Shown here piece by piece: positions 38,417 through 56,728 of a DNA stretch of 64,000 nucleotides (within the stretch, counting starts at the first letter, position 1; each line of letters begins with the position of its first letter). The DNA is from Pleurotus djamor (lineage: Eukaryota > Basidiomycota > Agaricomycetes > Agaricales > Pleurotaceae). Location of the stretch: assembly GCA_029747585.1 (NCBI GenBank), contig JAPEVF010000081.1, forward strand, positions 1 to 64,000. Direction: 5' to 3'. The position numbers and the translations under genes are program-made. The notes beneath the pieces are model-generated. The model saw only the letters and a program-made list of their open reading frames with translations, was not told the DNA's origin and did no database searches.

Positions 38417-38608
38417 CTAACAGCCACCGAGCAAGCTGCAGATCACTTTGGGGTCGATGTCTTTGAAACGTTGTCAGAAATCTGGGTGGCGATTATAAAC
38501 GTGGCACTCGTCACCTTTATTGTCTTCCTTGGGTTCCGGGACAGGATTGGCAACAACACCTGCAATCACGAAGACGGCGACGAGGAAGGCGGCAATGCGA
38601 GACATCAT
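38417..38608 (-). CDS. Tiny secreted peptide precursor, tandem copy 1
   Basis: Two exons: 38515-38608 and 38417-38460, joined across a 54-bp intron (GTGACG..AAAG, branch CTGAC). The 45-aa product has a signal peptide MMSRIAAFLVAVFVIAGVVA, an X-Pro ladder NPVPEPKEDNK and the C-terminus DIDPKVICSLLGGC followed by TAG. Unspliced reading gives a different end (GDECHVYN...) that the other two copies do not share, which supports splicing. A second intron (38620-38685) lies in the 5' UTR, and TTAAATAC at 38743-38750 is a likely TATA box. There is no CaaX box, so it is not a classical mating pheromone. The two cysteines (C-x5-C) could form one small disulfide ring. I do not know the family. Confidence 0.75.
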
Positions 38609-39938
38609 GATGTTGATAGCTAGAGTATGATGCAGAGGGACCATGGGTGAGTGGAGGTTGCTATTCAAGTAGTCTCAACACTTACAGATGCTGAGCTTGA
38701 AGAAGGTACTTCTCTGTGGAGAAGAGGCAAATTTGGTGCTCCTTAAATACTCAGGAAATCCTGAGATATATCTGCGTAGAATGCTTGTATCAATTCGCCA
38801 CAGATTGAAAGCCAAGGTCTGGTTCTCGGTGATGCAACAGAATGAATAGAATTACGCACTTACTCTCCTCCGAGTATTCAAGGTCAACTAATTCATAGAC
38901 CTATAGCCATTTTACACGGTAGCGAGTGGAAATAAAGCGAAGGACTAGAGTCGATGCGTCTTCATTCCAGGTACATGCGTCATGCGGGCTTAGTATATGG
39001 TCTCGGCGCGAGCCCTCCAAACCGAGGGGCTTCTATTCGTATGGGATGCGAGATAATATGCTGCTAAGTTCCCTTGAATCTGGGAAAGTACCAAATGATG
39101 CACTACCCTTTCAGAAACAACAGGGGAATGGACATCAGTGCGTCATGAAGCCCATACCATATCTGGTGAATTTACGTCTATGGCTGCCTATGAAACACAG
39201 ACTTGAGTCCAAAAAGCCAAGTTGACGGTTTAAAACTCTCGAAATCGGGTGTATGTCCCCGAGAGTCGAACTGAGGTCGAGGTCGAGCCAGTGCCATACT
39301 TGATACATGAGAGCCATCATCCAAGCATTGACAACGGTCGAGTCGTCGATGCCCCCAAAAGATACCCTAGCCTAAGGTAAAACACAGTGATCGTATTCCA
39401 AGGTGACTCAACGCGCCGTGGAACAAACGTTCTCGTGAGGGTGTGAGGGTGAGGGCATAGTCTGCCGTTTCCCTGCACAATATGGTGAGGGAAGAACTTG
39501 ACAGGTGGCTCCTGTAGGCTTCAGAGGTGATGCAAAGCCCTAGAGCGAGATGCTGAGAGTACACCAAATTCAATACAACTCCAAGTGCACGTAGTAGAGA
39601 TGGTGTTGCTCGTAGGAACCGCTGGAATTTGAAACTTTGGGGAAATTTGGCACGCTCAGCCTCGGACATAACGGAGCCTAAGAGCCGTCGACAGGGGTGT
39701 CCTGATTCTCCGACTGCTCGCAGCCGACACTGGAGGATACACGCTGTTCTTCGATACGTCCAAGCCCTTTTGAGATGGTATTACTCTTATACTTCTCCCA
39801 GTTATATGATAAGATGTCACAAACTCTCGCTGGAATTGACGTGAAAACAGGGATACTACATGACAGGGGGTACGAACTACGCCCTTTGACACCCTAATCC
39901 GTATTCAAGCCTCGACGTAGTCAACCGTCTGTTCACTC
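38609..39938. other. Spacer between peptide copies 1 and 2
   Basis: Contains the upstream region of copy 1 (5' UTR intron 38620-38685, TATA-like 38743) and the downstream flank of copy 2. Short open frames in 38926-39669 look like chance. No other gene seen. Confidence 0.45.
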
Positions 39939-40262
39939 CTAACAGCCGCCGAGTAAGCTACAGATTACTTTTGGGTCGATGTCTGTGAAAGGTTGTCAGA
40001 GATTGGGGACGGCGATGTCCTGATCATATCACTCGTCACCTTTGTTGTCCTCCTTGGGTTCCGGGACAGGATTGGCAACGACACAGACAATTGCAACGAC
40101 AACGACGAGCAAGGTGGCGATGCGGGACATGCTGATAGATAGCTGTGATGGGCGAGTCAGAGCTGCTCTACAAGGGTATCTCACTAGGACTTACAGAGGT
40201 TGAACGTGAAGAAGGTACTTCTCTGTAGATTGAAGAGGTGAAGTGAGTGGTCGTTAAATACT
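39788..40262 (-). repeat. Tandem duplication unit 2 (peptide gene plus flanks)
   Basis: The flank 39797-39941 matches 41105-41230. Shared words include AAGATGTCACAA/AAGATGTCACGA, GATACTACATGACAGGGGGT / GATACTACACGACAGGAGGT and GTTCACTCCTAACAGCCGCC. Upstream, AGAAGTACCTTCTTCA and GAGTATTTAA are shared by all three units. The duplicated block therefore covers promoter, 5' UTR intron, coding region and about 130 bp of 3' flank. Confidence 0.7.
39939..40130 (-). CDS. Tiny secreted peptide precursor, tandem copy 2
   Basis: Exons 40040-40130 and 39939-39982 flank a 57-bp intron (GTGACG..TTTCACAG, branch CTGAC). The 44-aa product has signal MSRIATLLVVVVAIVCVVA, then NPVPEPKEDNK and DIDPKVICSLLGGC. 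From the X-Pro ladder to the end it is identical to copy 1, although the last exon differs at five bases, all synonymous third positions. Unspliced, the frame stops after GDE. A 5' UTR intron (40143-40194) and TTAAATAC (40254-40261) sit where they do in copy 1. Confidence 0.75.
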
Positions 40263-41227
40263 CGGGATGCCTGGGGTATATCAACATCATATACTACTGT
40301 CTGGTTGCGCTGTCGATGGAAAAATATGGAATCTTAGTAGCAAGAAGGAGGAAATAGAACCGCTTTCTTACTCTCTTCCGAGTATTCGGGCTTGTAAGAT
40401 GAAACACGGCGAGCAGCGGTGAAGTGATGGACTGCATCGTGAGGCGATAATATGCCGTACCGACTCCCAAGTTGTACACTAAAGCTGCTGACTTCACACA
40501 AATAGAAATGACAGGCAGGATGCGAGTCTGGGTGCTGAGGCCCCCCATTAGCCTTGTCAACTAGGCCCAAGGAATTTCTTTGGGGTGTAACAAAGCGAAA
40601 AGGCGAGAATTCGCGAAGGGGGGGGAGGCTGAGGTAGTGTCTGCATACGTAAATGTCGGCTGCCAAAAGACTTTGGTCATACAATGTCACCACTTCTTGA
40701 ACGGAAGGGCTTATGTGTAGTGCGGGTCAATATGCTGCTGCTACTCGCCCTCGACAAGACCTAGGCAGCGAATTTAGACCATCAAAAATTCCAAAAAACC
40801 CCACGGACCTTTTTGGAGTCGAGTCGAGTCGAGGACGACGACGACGACGAAGGCGTAGATTCTCATGCTTGATACGTACGATTCGAGTCTCTAACCTGAC
40901 CTGAAACACGATGACCGTCTCACGACGCACAAGGCTCGTCACACTGGAGAATAACCGTGTTCTTTGGTGTCATGGCCTCCTCTTTGGTGGGCTAGGGGTG
41001 ATACGCATTGAAGGATAATCGAAGTTGCGAGGAGTATCCGTGGGTTGGTTTGGGAAGCCACCCTTCGTTGCTCACAAGGCAGTATTCAAGGTGTATCCCC
41101 TTCATATCCCCTCCAAATATGTGAGAAGATGTCACGATTTCTTGGCAGCATCGAGATGACATGAGGATACTACACGACAGGAGGTAAGAATGGCACCCTA
41201 TCTACACACGCGACGGCATGTTCACTC
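40131..41227. other. Spacer between peptide copies 2 and 3
   Basis: Holds the copy 2 promoter, a GTCGAGTCGA / GACGACGAC microsatellite (about 40817-40852) and the copy 3 downstream flank. No other gene seen. Confidence 0.45.
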
Positions 41228-41553
41228 CTAACAGCCGCCGATCAAGCTACAGAGTACCGTGGGGTCGATATCTTCCCGGGTTTCATGTTAGAAACTGGGA
41301 TGGGGAAACCGTAAGACCATTCATTACCTTTGTTCTCTTCCTTGGGATCCGGCACGGGATTGGCGAAGCCGTTGACAATGGCAAAGGCAACGACAAGTAA
41401 GGCGGCAATGCGAGACATGCTGATAGCTATCTGTGATGCAGAATGAGCAAGTCTGATATACTCTACCAGGACACTTCGACACTTACAGAGGTGGAACTTG
41501 AGGAAAGTACTTCTCTGTGGAAATGAGGTGAGTTGAGTGCTCCTTAAATACTC
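41105..41553 (-). repeat. Tandem duplication unit 3 (peptide gene plus flanks)
   Basis: Same layout as unit 2: conserved 3' flank, two exons, CDS intron, 5' UTR intron, AGAAGTACTTTCCTCA leader and CCGAGTATTTAAGGAGCAC promoter core. Confidence 0.7.
41228..41418 (-). CDS. Tiny secreted peptide precursor, tandem copy 3
   Basis: Exons 41328-41418 and 41228-41271 flank a 56-bp intron (GTAATG..GGGAAG, branch CTAAC). The 44-aa product has signal MSRIAALLVVAFAIVNGFA, then NPVPDPKEENK and DIDPTVLCSLIGGC. It differs from copies 1 and 2 mainly by conservative exchanges (E/D, D/E, I/L, L/I, K/T), and both cysteines and the GGC end are kept. Unspliced reading would give a 58-aa protein whose tail the other copies lack. 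A 5' UTR intron is at 41431-41486 and a TATA-like TTAAATAC at 41544-41551. Confidence 0.75.
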
Positions 41554-43020
41554 GGCGACGTCTGAATTTATCAACAAAGGCCACTTGCTTACCTGGGTCG
41601 CCATTAGAAAGAAAAGGATAAGTTCTTGACGGAACGAAAGAATAAATAGAATGATCGATGAATATGAATTTCCACTCCACAGCAGCCTAGAATAGTATTG
41701 GCCGTTAGAAGCGACGTTGCGAGACTTCCCGAAGCCGTCAAAGTGTTTTTGCACACCAGTTAGATGCTTGTGTAATCCATCAGCTTGATGGGTGCACGTT
41801 TGAACGTTGAAGACGATTTGAAGTCGAGCATCGGGAGACGACCTGAGAAGTAGGAGTAGCCGTGATTGGCACAGAAAGCGAAAGGCTCAAATTATCATTC
41901 ATTGATGACGAATTACAGTACTCTGTGAAGGGAGTTTGTCAGAATGAGGTAGCTCGCGAAGTCGCCAATTTCCGCGTACTATAGTTAAATGAAACATTCT
42001 GTGCAAGCGAACCGGATGAATCTCAAGGAAGGGATGATAGCCACTCCGAAGTAGTGTTTAGTATGGGTATTTCGCAGCGAAACCACGATAAATGTGATTC
42101 CCTTCGCTGTAGGACATCAAGCTAACGTTGCATGGCCTCTAGCCGGACACGAGGAGAAGACCTTGCCCGAGTCTTGAGAGAATGCCGCAAAAAGTGCTGT
42201 TTTAGGCGTCGAAAGGCCAGAGCGTCGTACTTGCTCCGTCGGGCGTAGGCTCGAATTCCGGCCTCTATGACGAGAGGATGACAGTCGATCCTGTTCGCAT
42301 AGAGTAGAACGCTTCTGCGCGGAATTGTTCAGCGCGAAAACGAGGCTAAGACAGGTAGATGGATGGAGCCAGTTGGAGTGAAACTACGCAGAAATTCGAC
42401 AAAGCCCATGAACCGATAGAACACCCAAGCCGAAAGCCAGCAACTAGAGACGGAGGAAAAGAGACACGTTTCTGTGCATTTCTGATTGGCTCTATTACAC
42501 GGGCGGATTACTGTCAAAGGTCAGTTGGATGAGGGGAAGTCCCGAGGTGTTGTCATGTACAGTTCCTGTTCCAGGATAAAACAATGAAGGTCGCACTGTG
42601 AGTGTTGCGAGTGTTGTGCGAGTGTTGAAGTTGGTTTGTGTGGTACTTACCAAAGGCTATCGAGAGGACTTACTGACGGTGGAAGAGAGAAACTTACTGT
42701 GAGAATATTCTGATCTCGGCCTCTCGGCAGAGCTTCCCTCGACCATCGAGATCAACATCAGGATCTCATGGGATTGGGGGCTCCGGTGCGCCCTCTCCTC
42801 CACTACACACGCCATATTAGAAGCCAATTGCCGATAGTGCGCTTGATTACACATGGATTGCGAGCTTGAACCCATGACCAAGCGCATTACTCAGCTACAA
42901 TGGCGTAGCTAGGCACAAAGGTTTGTATATAGATGAACTATAAGCTTCCCCAACATCGATTCACCGTTCTCCCATCCAGCCGCATCAGATAACTCGTTTC
43001 TTTTTCATATAATTTTCGCC
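41419..43020. other. Gene-poor stretch
   Basis: Apart from the copy 3 promoter (to about 41560) and the GST promoter (about 42900-43020), I see no gene, tRNA or element. Short open frames here have no support. Confidence 0.5.
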
Positions 43021-49730: not shown

Positions 49731-52700
49731 TCACTCAAAAGCAGAAGCAACACATACCTGAGCATGAAGGAAGGCTACCCACGGGCCGGTTGTACCATCT
49801 CGATTGACGTACACATCCATCTCAGTTTCGCGAACCATTTCTTGGTACCCCGGAATCCTGCCGACACTACCAGGGGCGCGACGAATGTTCTTCAGGCCGA
49901 AGATGACCTTGAGAATTTCGGCGATGGCGACTTGAGAGTATGTGGTGCCGATGCAGTTATGGTAACCAGAGCCATTTAAATTGTAGCTTGCTTTGGGCCG
50001 GCGTGGGTCAACGACATACGGATCCGGGAAGTCCACAGGCTGCGAAGGTAGTTAGAACGTTGTGACCTCCGGGGAAGAGAATCTGACTTACGTTTACGTG
50101 GGCTGTGCGGAAGCTGGCCCAGATTCGATCACCAGCTTTTACTATTAGTGGAGGCAGGGAGCCAGCCTGTGGAATTGTGGCATCAACAGCAACATCACGC
50201 CATAAACCCGGAGTTTGAGGATGCAATCCTAGGAGAGAAACAGTCAGCTTCAACCGAAAGACACTGAAAACAAAGTAACTCACTCATAGCCTCCCTAACG
50301 TAGCCTTGAAGAAGCTCCGAGCTCTGAGCGTCGTTCTTCTTAATCAGTGCGATGATCTCATTTCGTTCCTTGGCCCGCGTGTCATCAAGATAGAAGTCAA
50401 CGACATTCACAGCACCTATGTGACATGTTCAGGGCAGGAAGGAAAGGGACAGGAGCACAGTTATCCGCACCTTGGGCGAAATTGACAGATGAGCCAACAG
50501 CAAGGCCGATGATGTTCCCCACAAGTGCGTCTAAAGGGCGTCCAGTGGAAGTCAGAGCAGACAAGAAGGGGTATGAAGGCTTGGTATTTGCGGGCCAAAT
50601 GTACGATGAGGCCTTTGCAATCAAGCTACCGACAGTACTCTGGGGAAATATCGGTTGACGTGGATCAGATTTTGATGGTCGTGGATCGGACGTCAACGAC
50701 TCACCGGGACAACAGAAGGCGAGACGTGAACAAGAGATTTCGCCGCCATGAGGCCAATCAGAGCGCCCGCAGTCGATGCAGCATCATTGAGAGCAAACTT
50801 GGTCTCGGGTTCATCGAAGGCCAGGAAGGTCACCCTACATAAAATGTGAACTTCCAAAAGTTCCTCCAGATCAAAGCACGTACTGGAACTAGTCAATAGG
50901 TGTCAGGATGGGGTTCAAGCCATGCGAATAGAAGACGCTTACAAGCATGGCAAACATAGCGTAGAGCTCTTGTTCGGTATACACTCCGCGGGGGTTATCC
51001 TTTGTCTTCAGCTCAACGCCCAACTGCTCTCGCCAAGGTCAAGAACACTTCAGGGTAGGGACGAAAGCTTGACTAACCAGTTTCTCAGCCACGAAGTGAA
51101 TGGCAACCATGTTGATGACATCGTTGACGATATCCACAAATTTTCCAGGTACGCCATCGTACCTATGAATGGAAGTTAACCTCTGACAGCGATGATCCTG
51201 AAGCAACGGAACTTACTTCCAAGATCGATCTTTAACCATCTTAGCGGTTTCAGCTTTGTACCATGCAGCGTATTGATCCAGGGAGTCCTTTGAAGGGAAG
51301 AGCGCATGCATGACCTGGAGTGATCGTTAATCAACATGAAAGAGGCACGCGGAGGTCAAACACACCAAAGCACGATCACTGTCATGTTGCTTGTCGTCGA
51401 AGAACAGCATTGCTACAAAGAAGTCATGCATCAGCTGATTATAGCTCTGACAGTGTGAGCACTTACATCCGTAACCTTTCTTTTCGTATATCACCTTGAA
51501 GCGACTAGGATCATTGAATACTGCCTTGATGGCGGTGAAGTCCTTGAGTACGAGCGGGATCGGTTGAGCGATAGGGCGATCAAAGGTATACTTTTTCGCA
51601 ATTCCCTGTCTAGTCAATGTCTGCTTCATGTAATCTGGGGTGAAAAATGGCCAGAGTGACAGAGAGGAATTCTTGGTCAAGGGGTTCAGGGATACAGCAC
51701 ATGGAGCATGACAAATGGAGAGTAGTACATACCCAAGGGTAGTGCCTGGGTAGGTTACGCATGAGAAGTTTTGGCACTGCAAGGGAGGTGAGAATAGATA
51801 GATAGGGATGAGGTAGAACATGCGTACTCTGTCCACCTCCACCTCCATTGTCAAGATGGCGTTGACAGTCATGGAATCCCCAAGTCGTCAGATTGAAAGC
51901 TTGGAAAGAATTAATGGAAGGGACCACGCAAAAACGAGAGACCGTGTCACTCACGAGTGAAATCCGTAGTGTAAAAGCGATCGCCGCGAACAAGGGCAAT
52001 CGCATCGCCAAGGACGGCCTTCGTGGTCTAAAACGAGTCCCAGTGAATCAAGTGAACATTCCTCTTGTGACGTCGACCATACCGTGTAACCACAAGCCTA
52101 GATAAAGGCCAATCGTCAATAAAACGATTGGGATAAGTTGTGAACAGAACGTACAAATCTCATCCCATCAACAACAGGCATAGTTGGCTCAGCTTGGAGA
52201 CCAGGCTGGATGCGACTGAGGTGCTGCATTCTCCAGAGTAAAGGAACAACTAACGTAAAGTTCGAGATTATCGACATGACCGTAAAGGCGTCGAGCAGCG
52301 GCCTAACGGAAGGAATTAGCTGAGGGGACCGTCTCCAGGATGAATGGGGTCTCACAGCGATCTCTGGATCGGGATTCCATTCCTCGAAGGTCTCGAACTC
52401 TGGAAAGAGTGGAGGTGTCAGATGGACACTCACAATACTCATGGGGTAGGGTACGGACGCTTTAAACCGAGGAACTTCCTAAACTCGTTCATGGTGCAAA
52501 CACCCCATAAACGAGCCTGCTCCATGCCCATGATTTCCACCAACCTCAAAACAGGAGGAGTGCCACGCCCTCTGAACGTTCCAGCAGGGTTAATGGTAGC
52601 TTCATGCAAAATTCTCGCAAGATCATCATCGGAGAACTTGCCATCAGGCCCACGCTTCAACCTAGGGGGTGACAATTATATCAACATGTGTGTACAGGCG

Positions 52701-54541
52701 AATAGCCCAAGGTCGGTATTTACCCGGCAAATGTACGCTTGGCTGGGTCAGAGGGAACATCGGCGAACAATTTGCCGATGGTGGCAAGGTCTCGGAGGGA
52801 CAACTATGCATGCAAAGAACCAATCAATCGATCAACTGAGGTTTGAGGACCATGGAAGGATCGTACCTGATCGAAAGGTTTGCCTCCGAACGCGTGGTTG
52901 AACACGTCCTCCGTCCATTTTTCGTCAACTGCGGAGGTTGTGGCATGCCACTGTGGAAATGACCGTGAGTTAGAAGGTGAGTTATCAATATATCGATGTC
53001 AATGGACACACTCTATAAAGAACATTGAACTCGACACTGCAGTGGTTCCCACGTCCTCGGTCGACGACCAAGTCGTCCCTCTTAATCAGCTACATAGGAT
53101 CAGGATCATCAGCGAATGGGGATGCGGGTATTGGGAGGAAATCGCACGTCGAAAGGGTTCATGTTCCAGTTGCAGTTCTCCGACGAACCGAGGAAGCTCG
53201 CTGCGTAGTCGCCCGTAATCATGGTCATGAAGTGACCACCGTTGATCAAGCGAGCAGTCTGGAAAATCTCCTCGTCCTGCTGGGCAAGGGCTACAGGGTC
53301 AGTAGGTGGAGGGTTGGTCCATCGTTTTCTTTCATTAATCTTCAAAATTTTGTCCGCAATATACTAACGGGAGTGTAAGGAGAAACATCAAATGAGGAGT
53401 AAATGGTGCTCACGTTGTGGTTCCTACTGAAGAGGACAAGAAGCGCGCTGGTAGCGGGGGGCAGGAACAAGAGGCGTTCTTCGTGGAAAGTGTCCGGGTA
53501 CAATAACCCACGGCCAGATGCACGATCTCGAACCTTGTCTTGATCAGCTTGGTCTGGCAAACACGACGTAAGCGTAAGGGTTCTAACAGATGCTATGATC
53601 ACTTACTATCGCCATAGAGGGGGCTTAAATCCAAATATGAACTAGCCTTGTTGATCGTCCAGTCCTTGAGGTCGGTCCGGAACAGAGAATGTGTGACGAT
53701 AGACGCGAATGCAAAGATCAAGCTCGACATCCCACCGGGGTGGGTTTTGTGCTATTACAGATGTTTAGATTCGAGAAGACTGGGTAAGGACGACGTGTTA
53801 CCCACATCACGCTTTTTCAGCAATGTATCGAAGACGAGGCCAGGATCAGGGAGAGAGGTCCTTGGAAGGTTATTCTTTGCTTGAACACTGCGTGCGTAGG
53901 GTCTTCCTGCTTGACCGCATGAAGGGTCTTGAAGGCTGTTGTTCGATCCATCAGCTTGTCTCCACGCGTACTGTGGCCCAAGATAAGCAGCCGGCGGGTG
54001 TGGAATAGTGTCGTAGAGACCTCCGATGATGGTGTCGTTAAGTTTCATCGAAAGGGAGCTAGAAGGGTCAAGGCGAGCCATGATACCCAGTCCTGCTTCG
54101 AACTGGAAAATACGTCAACCAACGGCTAACAAAGTTGAAGTCAGACTATGGAGTAACTTACAACCCCATTCCTGTCGTCGGCCGCGTCCGGGTGAAGCAG
54201 TGTGTCGGTGAATCCAGCCTGTAAAGTGCTTCTCAAGTTCTCGTCGCCAACAATAGAGTACGTGTACCCACGATGACCTTGGGGTCAGGTTTAAACGGGC
54301 CCTTGGCCTTGAAATTGTCAATCTATGGATTGGAGTCAGTATAGGGAACGACGAGAGGTAAACTCAGAGGACATACGTGGTTGATGAAATTCGTTACGGT
54401 CGAGTGGCCTTCTTTCTTATCGTCGGGGTTCGACGATATTTGCCAGTCGTAGAGGCCTGTTGGCGCGTCAGGTGGTCGCCTGGCCGAGAGATGGACAGTG
54501 TCTGCGGCGAGGGTGATGAATTGTGAAGCAGAAAGGCTCAT
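49731..54541 (-). CDS. Psi-factor-type fatty-acid dioxygenase fused to cytochrome P450 (linoleate diol synthase family)
   Basis: Oxygenates linoleic/oleic acid to hydroperoxides (haem dioxygenase domain), which the P450 domain isomerises or cleaves. About twenty exons. The N-terminus MSLSASQFITLAADTVHLSA is short. The animal-peroxidase-like domain shows GLYDTIPHPPAAYLGPQYAW, SSYLDLSPLYGDNQADQDKV, ARLINGGHFMTMITGDY and the catalytic VEFNVLY-R-W-H region (Tyr and proximal His, split by an intron at about 52960-53020), then KFLGLKRP. The P450 half ends in RPKASYNLNGSGYHNCIGT (about 49960), with the haem-ligand Cys present, though the usual leading Phe is not. The C-terminal exon reads GRIPGYQEMVRETEMDVYVN. 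Fungal Ppo oxylipins control sporulation and in mushrooms feed 1-octen-3-ol formation. Exact product specificity cannot be read. Confidence 0.87.
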
Positions 54542-55211: not shown

Positions 55212-55520
55212 TCAATCCAAGCTAAAGAAGGAGTCTTTGACTTCGACTTGCTGCACATAATCAGGCCTGCAGCAGTGATATCCGCAGTCTCCTCCAACAT
55301 ACTTGTAGTACCAGCCAGGGGAAGCGGGTCCTCCACAGTTAGACCTCCTGCCTGGGTCACAGTACTTGCTGCAATGTTCGTACGCCTCGATAGGATTATC
55401 GTCACCTTTGATCTTGATCGTGAACTCGAGTAGGGAACGAGTTTCATGGGACGGCTCAGATATCGGAGTGGCAGCTACGAAGCTGCATGCGGCTAGCAGC
55501 AGACTCAGGTTGTATTTCAT
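55212..55520 (-). CDS. Small secreted six-cysteine protein (single copy)
   Basis: A single exon of 102 aa. The signal peptide MKYNLSLLLAACSFVAATP (start 55520) is followed by a propeptide-like stretch ISEPSHETRSLLEFTIKIKG. A compact cysteine domain follows, with spacing C-x3-C-x7-C-x16-C-x3-C-C (CSKYCDPGRRSNCGGPASPG, YYKYVGGDCGYHCCRPDY), then an acidic tail. Three disulfides are possible. The CC doublet and Gly/Tyr-rich centre resemble small fungal secreted proteins in general, but I recognise no named family. It does not align with the 26-kb/59-kb family. Function unknown. Confidence 0.75.
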   Translation of the reverse strand: MKYNLSLLLAACSFVAATPISEPSHETRSLLEFTIKIKGDDNPIEAYEHCSKYCDPGRRSNCGGPASPGWYYKYVGGDCGYHCCRPDYVQQVEVKDSFFSLD

Positions 55521-56728
55521 TGCGATGAATGCGAGTTCTATGAAGCGAATTCGTCGTCAGCATGGAGTAGTCTTTGAAAGCAGTAACTTCAACGCACTTC
55601 GATCAAGAGGTTGGTTCGTTGGGAACGAGGCAATTCCAAAGAAAACGACAAGAGAAGCTGTGGATGCGATGAGATGTAGGTGTGCATACGAGCTGCTGCT
55701 TGCGTACCTGAAAGATTGTGTTCCTAGCTGGATGATATCCAGTATTCTACATCGCCATTTTATAGGCCAACACGAGTGTTCTAATCGGATGCAAGACACG
55801 CACGAATGGGTTCGAAACGCCGATAAGCTGGTCTGAATGAAAGGAACCACATGAAGCGTGCCCCAGTTTATTGGGAGATGCAGTGTGCCTAGGGAAAGTT
55901 CTACGAACAATTTCGCGTTTCTTCTCAAAAGGTTAGCGGCGCGAATTGAATGGACGTCTTATCTGTAGCTTACCGCTCCAGCGTGTTATGAAGTGATGGC
56001 GCAACAAGGGTAAGCTTCACGAAGATTGGAGAAGTACTAGTAGGAGCCTAGGAGCGAGCTGAAAGCTCCGATCGTCTTCATTGCGCGAGGATCCCTTTCC
56101 CCTAACACTGACGACACGTAGAGAAACATCACTGGTGTGACTTGTTGTTGAACGTCGGCGTATGAGCAGTCTGTGTGAGCTGCCAGCTTGATCGCGACGT
56201 GCAGAAGCTAACTGAGTAAAAGTTGCGTATCCACATTACCTCACTCCAAAGAGGATATGGCGTTAGGTGAGCTCAACATACAACGTCAATTCTTTCATCT
56301 ATAATACCGCATAAGCGTTCTATTCGTACGCCAATCGAGTCATTGTCCCGATAGACTGACCTGGCAGAAGACAGGGAGCAACGTATAATACGAGGCCTCC
56401 CGCGCTCGAAGCTCCTGCACGAGGGGCTCTAGATGTCACTTTGGGATCCCTTCTTGATGGAATTCTCAGAAGTGCGTGATACGTATTGAGGTTCCTGGAA
56501 GTGGTGAGAAGAGTGTTTTAATGGCGAAGCAAAGGTAAGCTGCAGCTAGGAAGGAGAGACCAGCCATGCAAGCGAAGATATGCCGCACCGTGTGCTACGG
56601 CGGTGTGCGCGTTTCCTTCAAATCCCACGGCACAGAAAATAGAGCAAGGACTCCTAAAGCCCCTGTGCCACGTGGAGTAGAATGGATTCTGTTTGAAAAA
56701 GTTTTGGCCTTGGTCATCGCCAGCAACG
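55521..56728. other. Gene-poor stretch upstream of NLE1
   Basis: Open frames here (e.g. + strand to 55836) lack family features. Nothing else recognised. Confidence 0.5.

Follow-up and report, generated by a model that had tools for sequence, protein, structure and literature searches.

The 64,000-nucleotide stretch of pink oyster mushroom (Pleurotus djamor) DNA analysed here (assembly GCA_029747585.1, contig JAPEVF010000081.1, positions 1 to 64,000; referred to below as the window) contains three genes on the minus strand, which occupy 38417-38605, 39939-40130 and 41228-41418 (coding exons and intron) and each of which encodes a precursor of 44 amino acids (aa) with a C-x5-C end once an intron of 54-57 bp is removed. 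Together with a paralogue elsewhere in the assembly, they very probably constitute a real family of small, spliced, secreted peptides of P. djamor. The best overall explanation, to which we would give a probability of about 0.45, is that the family is under selection and most likely serves as a self-directed signal with one disulfide ring. As far as we are aware, mushroom-forming fungi have so far yielded few secreted signal peptides. The family is a clean, testable candidate, with precise gene models, a mature peptide that can be synthesised and a predictable mass. Pending evidence of expression or of orthologues, the finding is of moderate interest.

Gene models, copy number and splicing

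Each gene consists of a 91-base first coding exon, an intron of 54-57 bases and a 44-base last exon (Table 1). The spliced products are MSRIAAFLVAVFVIAGVVANPVPEPKEDNKDIDPKVICSLLGGC for copy 1, MSRIATLLVVVVAIVCVVANPVPEPKEDNKDIDPKVICSLLGGC for copy 2 and MSRIAALLVVAFAIVNGFANPVPDPKEENKDIDPTVLCSLIGGC for copy 3. Copy 1 has 45 aa when the upstream ATG of an 'ATGATG' serves as the start; this extra ATG is absent from the other allele. The exon and intron coordinates, peptides and base counts of an earlier, sequence-only reading of this DNA matched ours exactly on recomputation.

Searches of the assembly at the DNA level with copies 1, 3 and 4 each led to the same eight places, and the 16 pieces that copy 2 matched at the protein level all lie inside these places. 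All eight copies have an open reading frame (ORF), and the position and phase of the coding intron are common to all. The family is thus, as read from the assembly, one of four genes with two alleles each: copies 1-3 and a paralogue, copy 4, elsewhere. By synteny, contigs C773 and C532 are the other haplotype of the window, with an identity of ~97% over 28.9-38.4 kb and ~91-96% onward to 48.8 kb. Copy 4, with the product MSRIAILFVAAIAIVNV[I/M]ANPTPEPKEDNKDIDPKLLCSLVGGC, is found on C676 and C408; these two contigs are 94% identical over 10 kb, and the stretches of them that were compared (20 kb and 10 kb) share with the 64-kb window just the peptide genes and the DNA close by. We infer that the source material was a dikaryon.

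The genes had been described as three in tandem. This holds for the window's contig; the other haplotype has copies 1 and 2 on C773 and copy 3 on C532. Copies 1 and 2 are adjacent on both haplotypes, and copy 3 adjoins them in the window's contig only. The break between copies 2 and 3 is clean and corresponds to C773:24656 (L028:7657) and C532:18549 (L030:9550). Past it, the C773 flank of 1,457 bases has no other match in the assembly, and 2,500 bases of the C532 flank, starting ~450 bases past the break, gave only two short weak matches, on C904. In the window, the break at 41000/41001 marks either a haplotype rearrangement or insertion between the two copies, or a wrongly joined contig.

A TATTTAA box and a GTAAGT donor of an intron in the 5'-untranslated region (5'-UTR) were located by script in the window's three copies and by eye in the remaining ones. 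A 5'-UTR motif, CCACAGAGAAGTACCTTC, is common to the eight copies with at most two mismatches, and could be relevant to regulated splicing or expression. A search for distant members guided by this motif recovered the eight known copies and four other matches with two mismatches; the reversed control also gave four.

The three coding introns carry, by eye, a CTGAC/CTAAC branch-like motif and an AG end. The earlier claim that the genes are spliced is supported. Intron retention was rejected, as the eight copies, read unspliced, would have six different C-termini. Similarly, a third splice choice, with an acceptor 15 bases downstream, was rejected: of the five loci modelled, just copies 1 and 2 stay in frame with it. 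Another alternative is that the main transcript uses an intron of 71-75 bp, with the donor 7 or 10 bases later and the acceptor TG[CT]AG inside the last exon. The product would then continue after ...NKG with some variable residues and end in L[L/V/I]GGC; DIDPKVICS, including the first ring cysteine, would be gone, and copies 1, 2 and 4 would have one cysteine and no ring. This choice has a good acceptor (TGCAG/TGTAG) and is in frame in 8/8 copies, a common frame being largely one inherited fact and not eight. However, its donors (GTGCCA, GTGATA, GTCTTA, GTGGCA, GTAACA) are poor, of the nine codons that it would discard (31-39), 2 vary at position 1, 1 at position 2 and 6 at position 3, and copies 1 and 2 both encode DIDPKVICS despite three silent changes. 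The shorter intron is preferred because codons 31-39 vary in a coding fashion and the alternative donors are poorer and lie at differing places. The C-x5-C splice form would in all likelihood be the main product, and predominance of the 71-75 bp intron appears quite improbable.

The homology searches were run over predicted proteins and require common five-residue words, so that absence elsewhere proves little. Within this scope, a search with a single peptide gave 0 candidates. A five-sequence profile found one match among nine candidates, which turned out to be the genome's own mis-spliced model ONZ45_g4455, and a wider profile supplemented with two unspliced forms returned the same single match among 1729 candidates (E ≤ 10). 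Copies 2 and 3 (of the four paralogues) matched no Pfam-A family at E ≤ 1, solved structures gave no match to one 25-mer (E ≤ 10), an exact-peptide text search of open-access PMC with six strings was empty, and no paper in the literature search was recognised as a description of the peptide family. These empty searches of Pfam, structures, homologues and text support the earlier remark that no named family resembles the peptide.

ONZ45_g4455, a 'hypothetical protein' of Pleurotus djamor (P0001), is the deposited model of copy 3 and spans ~41242-41605 of the window on the minus strand. By eye, it is mis-spliced: it starts with MATQ 5' of the TATA box, reads upstream DNA as coding and appears to be joined over two introns, of which the second is the one in the 5'-UTR. 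It then runs through the coding intron and ends in ...STPRYSVA without the conserved C-terminus, which shows how such genes get lost. The searches made found no relative and no correct deposited model; the peptide genes themselves are considered real.

Selection on the mature peptide

The predicted mature 25-mer has the consensus NP[V/T]P[E/D]PKE[D/E]NKDIDP[K/T][V/L][I/L]CSL[L/I/V]GGC. Identities and codon columns were counted over four paralogues, copies 1A, 2A, 3B and 4a (copy 3 being represented by the other haplotype's allele). Mean pairwise identity is 0.84 in the last exon, 0.79 in the first coding exon and 0.66 in the coding intron; it is 0.72 over the 150 bp 5' of the start codon and 0.52 in the downstream DNA. 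In codons 20-44, 4/25, 2/25 and 14/25 columns are variable at positions 1, 2 and 3 (Fisher p = 1.6e-4). The conservation of the family is not due to chance, because there are eight copies and this third-position bias (14/25 vs 6/50).

The ratio of nonsynonymous to synonymous substitution (dN/dS) was obtained from Nei-Gojobori counts for the four paralogues with six pairs pooled; the pairs are non-independent and the values accordingly descriptive. It amounts to 0.35 in the signal peptide, 0.17 in residues 20-30, 0.12 in residues 31-44 and 0.14 over the predicted mature part as a whole. Between copies 1 and 2, the mature part shows 7 synonymous changes and 0 replacements (Fisher p = 3e-6, site numbers rounded). 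A recount of the last exon confirmed five synonymous and no replacement differences between copies 1 and 2, and three replacements in copy 3 relative to copy 1. The mature 25-mer is identical in 4/4 allele pairs; over the whole coding sequence the pairs show 0, 0, 2 and 3 synonymous changes, and the sole replacement is in the copy 4 signal peptide.

As far as sequence comparison reaches, the peptide following the signal peptide is shown to be under purifying selection, and selection has let it change far less than the surrounding DNA. The earlier claim of selection on the peptide is thereby upheld by dN/dS, codon-position bias and identical alleles. A conserved RNA or DNA element behind the conservation would account for the similarity of the 150 bp upstream, but it fits neither the third-position bias nor the 7:0 ratio of synonymous to replacement changes between copies 1 and 2, nor an intron that is less alike than the exons. 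We consider it extremely improbable.

Predicted secretion, possible processing and function

The precursors begin with a signal-peptide-like N-terminus, with a best 8-residue hydropathy of 3.2-3.9 and Ala at the likely -1 position (hydropathy only). The hydrophobic core and this Ala agree with the earlier claim of secretion. The net charge (K+R minus D+E) is -2 in copies 1, 2 and 4 and -3 in copy 3. Both cysteines are invariant in 8/8 copies, as is the presence of N-P-[V/T]-P-[E/D]-P, which has no Kex2 site ahead of it; none of the dibasic pairs KR, RR, KK and RK occurs in the 5/5 distinct precursors scanned. We assume that signal peptidase would cut after Ala19 to give the 25-mer, in which a bond between the two cysteines would make a C-terminal ring of seven residues, C-S-L-x-G-G-C, preceded by an acidic tail with spaced prolines. 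An enzyme of the Ste13/DPP-IV type might then trim NP, xP and xP to leave a 19-mer starting with KE. The predicted forms include NPVPEPKEDNKDIDPKVICSLLGGC and KEDNKDIDPKVICSLLGGC, besides those of copies 3 and 4.

Such trimming is plausible, if tentative. The genome has a putative Ste13/DPP-IV-type locus (DPPIV_N at C480:31595-33107, then Peptidase_S9 pieces at C480:33812-34790) and, in one P_proprotein piece on C222, a putative Kex2-type enzyme. An X-Pro/X-Ala ladder stands beside the secreted peptide in melittin-type precursors. The excerpted text of PMC9769878 describes the same for the ascomycete alpha-factor precursor, and adds that peptides, MSGVAADW among them, were detected from Pleurotus precursors that contain XP/XA motifs; as far as its authors knew, this was the first sign of STE13 activity in a basidiomycete. 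These peptides make trimming possible in the genus; they are no evidence for the precursor studied here, which is free of Kex2 sites. The likeness to melittin and alpha-factor is one of description, not of sequence comparison, and concerns the ladder; those peptides have no ring. The X-Pro ladder proposed earlier is thus compatible with the DPP-IV/Ste13-type locus and the Pleurotus precursors, but there are three X-Pro steps only, which counts against it, and the feature may be unspecific. A secreted-looking ORF at 55215-55556 (minus strand) also opens with spaced prolines (TPISEP), so that an X-Pro start may be unspecific. This ORF begins like a signal peptide (MKYNLSLLLAACSFVAATPISEPSHE...), has six cysteines within a short stretch further on, and would be a second, unrelated small cysteine-rich secreted protein; Pfam gave no match to it at E ≤ 1.

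Known peptide systems were compared. The Kex2 repeat precursors (KEPs) of Agaricomycetes, e.g. Pleurotus ostreatus KEP 1091723, which yields MSGVAADW, resemble the djamor peptide in signal peptide, XP/XA dipeptides, short product and genus, as far as the excerpts of PMC9769878 go. In KEPs, as described there, repeated cores lie between Kex2 sites, whereas the djamor peptide has its XP run right after the predicted signal peptide and contains two cysteines. A KEP was ruled out, since there is one core and dibasic sites are absent from 5/5 precursors. The Ssp1-6 proteins of P. ostreatus are likewise an oyster-mushroom secreted multigene family without a known domain, and Ssp1 has been proposed to act in cell-to-cell communication (PMC5674062, PMC7105643, PMC10705924, each in excerpt). 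With ~18 kDa (PMC5674062, excerpt) against precursors of 44-45 residues, identity with Ssp1-6 was ruled out by size, the sequences not having been compared.

The a-type mating pheromones of basidiomycetes also have tiny precursors and several gene copies, and they carry a CaaX end. The djamor peptide, in contrast, ends in LGGC, IGGC or VGGC, has a signal-peptide-like N-terminus and is identical on both haplotypes. According to the excerpted PMC9769878, a-type pheromones are cytoplasmic and prenylated. Among 30 candidates scored, STE3 gave at least 41 pieces on at least 8 contigs, none on C1207, C773, C532, C676 or C408 (short contigs). A mating pheromone was rejected on the missing CaaX, the lack of an STE3 match on the same contigs among the candidates scored, and the identical alleles. 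Frog Rana-box peptides such as brevinins have a seven-residue C-terminal disulfide ring and are cationic, with a helical N-terminus; the ring size is alike, but the djamor peptide is anionic. Mimicry of an arthropod CCAP-like ring was considered and dropped, there being no amidation glycine and no support.

A diffusible or surface-bound peptide that acts on the fungus itself as a signal is our tentative choice and the weakest step of the explanation. It is favoured because the two haplotypes encode the same mature part and the paralogues differ little in it, which sets it apart from mating-type determinants and from the toxins of an arms race. The signal role suggested earlier is neither contradicted nor established by these data. 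Going further, the peptide might represent a new class of mushroom peptide hormone, with a single-core, Kex2-independent precursor, Ste13/DPP-IV trimming and a ring that signals within the mycelium. Such a class, which would have escaped notice because genes with two introns and a product of 44 residues are missed or wrongly spliced by gene predictors, is a speculative and unlikely extension.

Several observations weigh against the signal interpretation and its gene models. The ring, probable as it seems, is assumed from the two cysteines. The three prolines are invariant, but so are 8 of the 9 residues that follow, so that no ladder stands out. Constraint is uneven: the mature parts of copies 3 and 4 are separated by 7 replacement changes and a single synonymous one. 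The coding-intron donors of copies 1-3 (GTGACG, GTGACG and GTAATG) differ from the textbook GTRNGT; over all copies they are GTGACG, GTGACC and GTAATG, atypical forms that may matter for regulated splicing or expression. The second intron choice, weaker than the first, is in frame in 8/8 copies. No orthologues outside this genome were seen in the predicted-protein searches needing shared words.

The replacements between copies 3 and 4 (7 vs 1 synonymous) would suit a secreted peptide for defence or antagonism (against bacteria, fungi or animals) whose C-terminal ring is the active part, as would the duplicated genes, the small size, the C-x5-C ring itself and the six-cysteine secreted-looking ORF in the same window. 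However, a net charge of -2 or -3 is not the positive one of cationic antimicrobials and weakens the antimicrobial role suggested earlier; together with a mature dN/dS of 0.14 and identical alleles in 4/4 pairs, it leaves defence unlikely. A structural or surface-active micro-peptide of the cell wall, spore or hyphal surface, working by abundance rather than through a receptor, is rather unlikely too. Strong, regulated expression would fit with the TATA box and the intron in the 5'-UTR, the hydrophobic C-terminus and acidic tail make the molecule amphipathic, and several copies give dose; yet there are only two cysteines in 25 residues without repeats, and conservation covers the hydrophilic NKDIDP. 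The self-directed signal is the reading that we favour.

Feature coordinates and neighbouring genes

Table 1. Positions in the window of the features of the three peptide genes and of the switch in haplotype alignment
Feature	Position	Strand	Remarks
Copy 1 last exon	38417..38460	-	translation (K)DIDPKVICSLLGGC*, C-x5-C end
Copy 1 coding intron	38461..38514	-	54 bp, GTGACG...CAAAG; retention gives an in-frame stop
Copy 1 first coding exon	38515..38605	-	signal peptide and NPVPEPKEDNK; second in-frame ATG at 38606-38608
Copy 1 TATA box TATTTAA	38743..38749	-	5'-UTR intron donor GTAAGT from 38685
Copy 2 last exon	39939..39982	-	coordinates and translation
Copy 2 coding intron	39983..40039	-	57 bp
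Copy 2 first coding exon	40040..40130	-	coordinates and translation
Copy 2 TATA box	40254..40260	-	5'-UTR intron donor from 40194
Copy 3 last exon	41228..41271	-	coordinates and translation
Copy 3 coding intron	41272..41327	-	56 bp, GTAATG...GGAAG
Copy 3 first coding exon	41328..41418	-	coordinates and translation
Copy 3 TATA box	41544..41550	-	5'-UTR intron donor from 41486
Haplotype alignment switch	41000..41001	.	from C773, on the side of copies 1-2, to C532, on the side of copy 3

No biosynthetic cluster was seen around the window copies, UstYa-type genes not having been searched for. The neighbours in the window are an ATP-grasp ORF resembling ADE2, a succinate dehydrogenase (SDH) subunit and Hus1, and a GST-like ORF, below the Pfam cut-off, lies ~2 kb from the peptide genes. 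This setting bears on the possibility of a ribosomally synthesised and post-translationally modified cyclic peptide, in which the C-terminal CSLxGGC core would be excised and tailored by enzymes. The conserved C-terminus does look like a core after a leader, and the GST-like ORF and oxygenase-like pieces ~8-12 kb away could be read as tailoring genes. Against this, there are no dibasic sites, the other named neighbours (ATP-grasp/ADE2-type, SDH subunit, Hus1) are ordinary, and copy 4 has a different set of neighbours instead; such a precursor appears improbable.

The pieces ~8-12 kb away, exon-like and on the minus strand at ~49734-53363, resemble by eye a haem peroxidase/P450 fatty-acid oxygenase; over 49.7-53.4 kb they gave one weak Pfam match, An_peroxidase with E 0.003, below the cut-off. 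Copy 4 (C676, L025:7586-9462) adjoins a siroheme-synthase/tetrapyrrole-methylase ORF, with Pfam matches over the cut-off, and also an F-box-like ORF.

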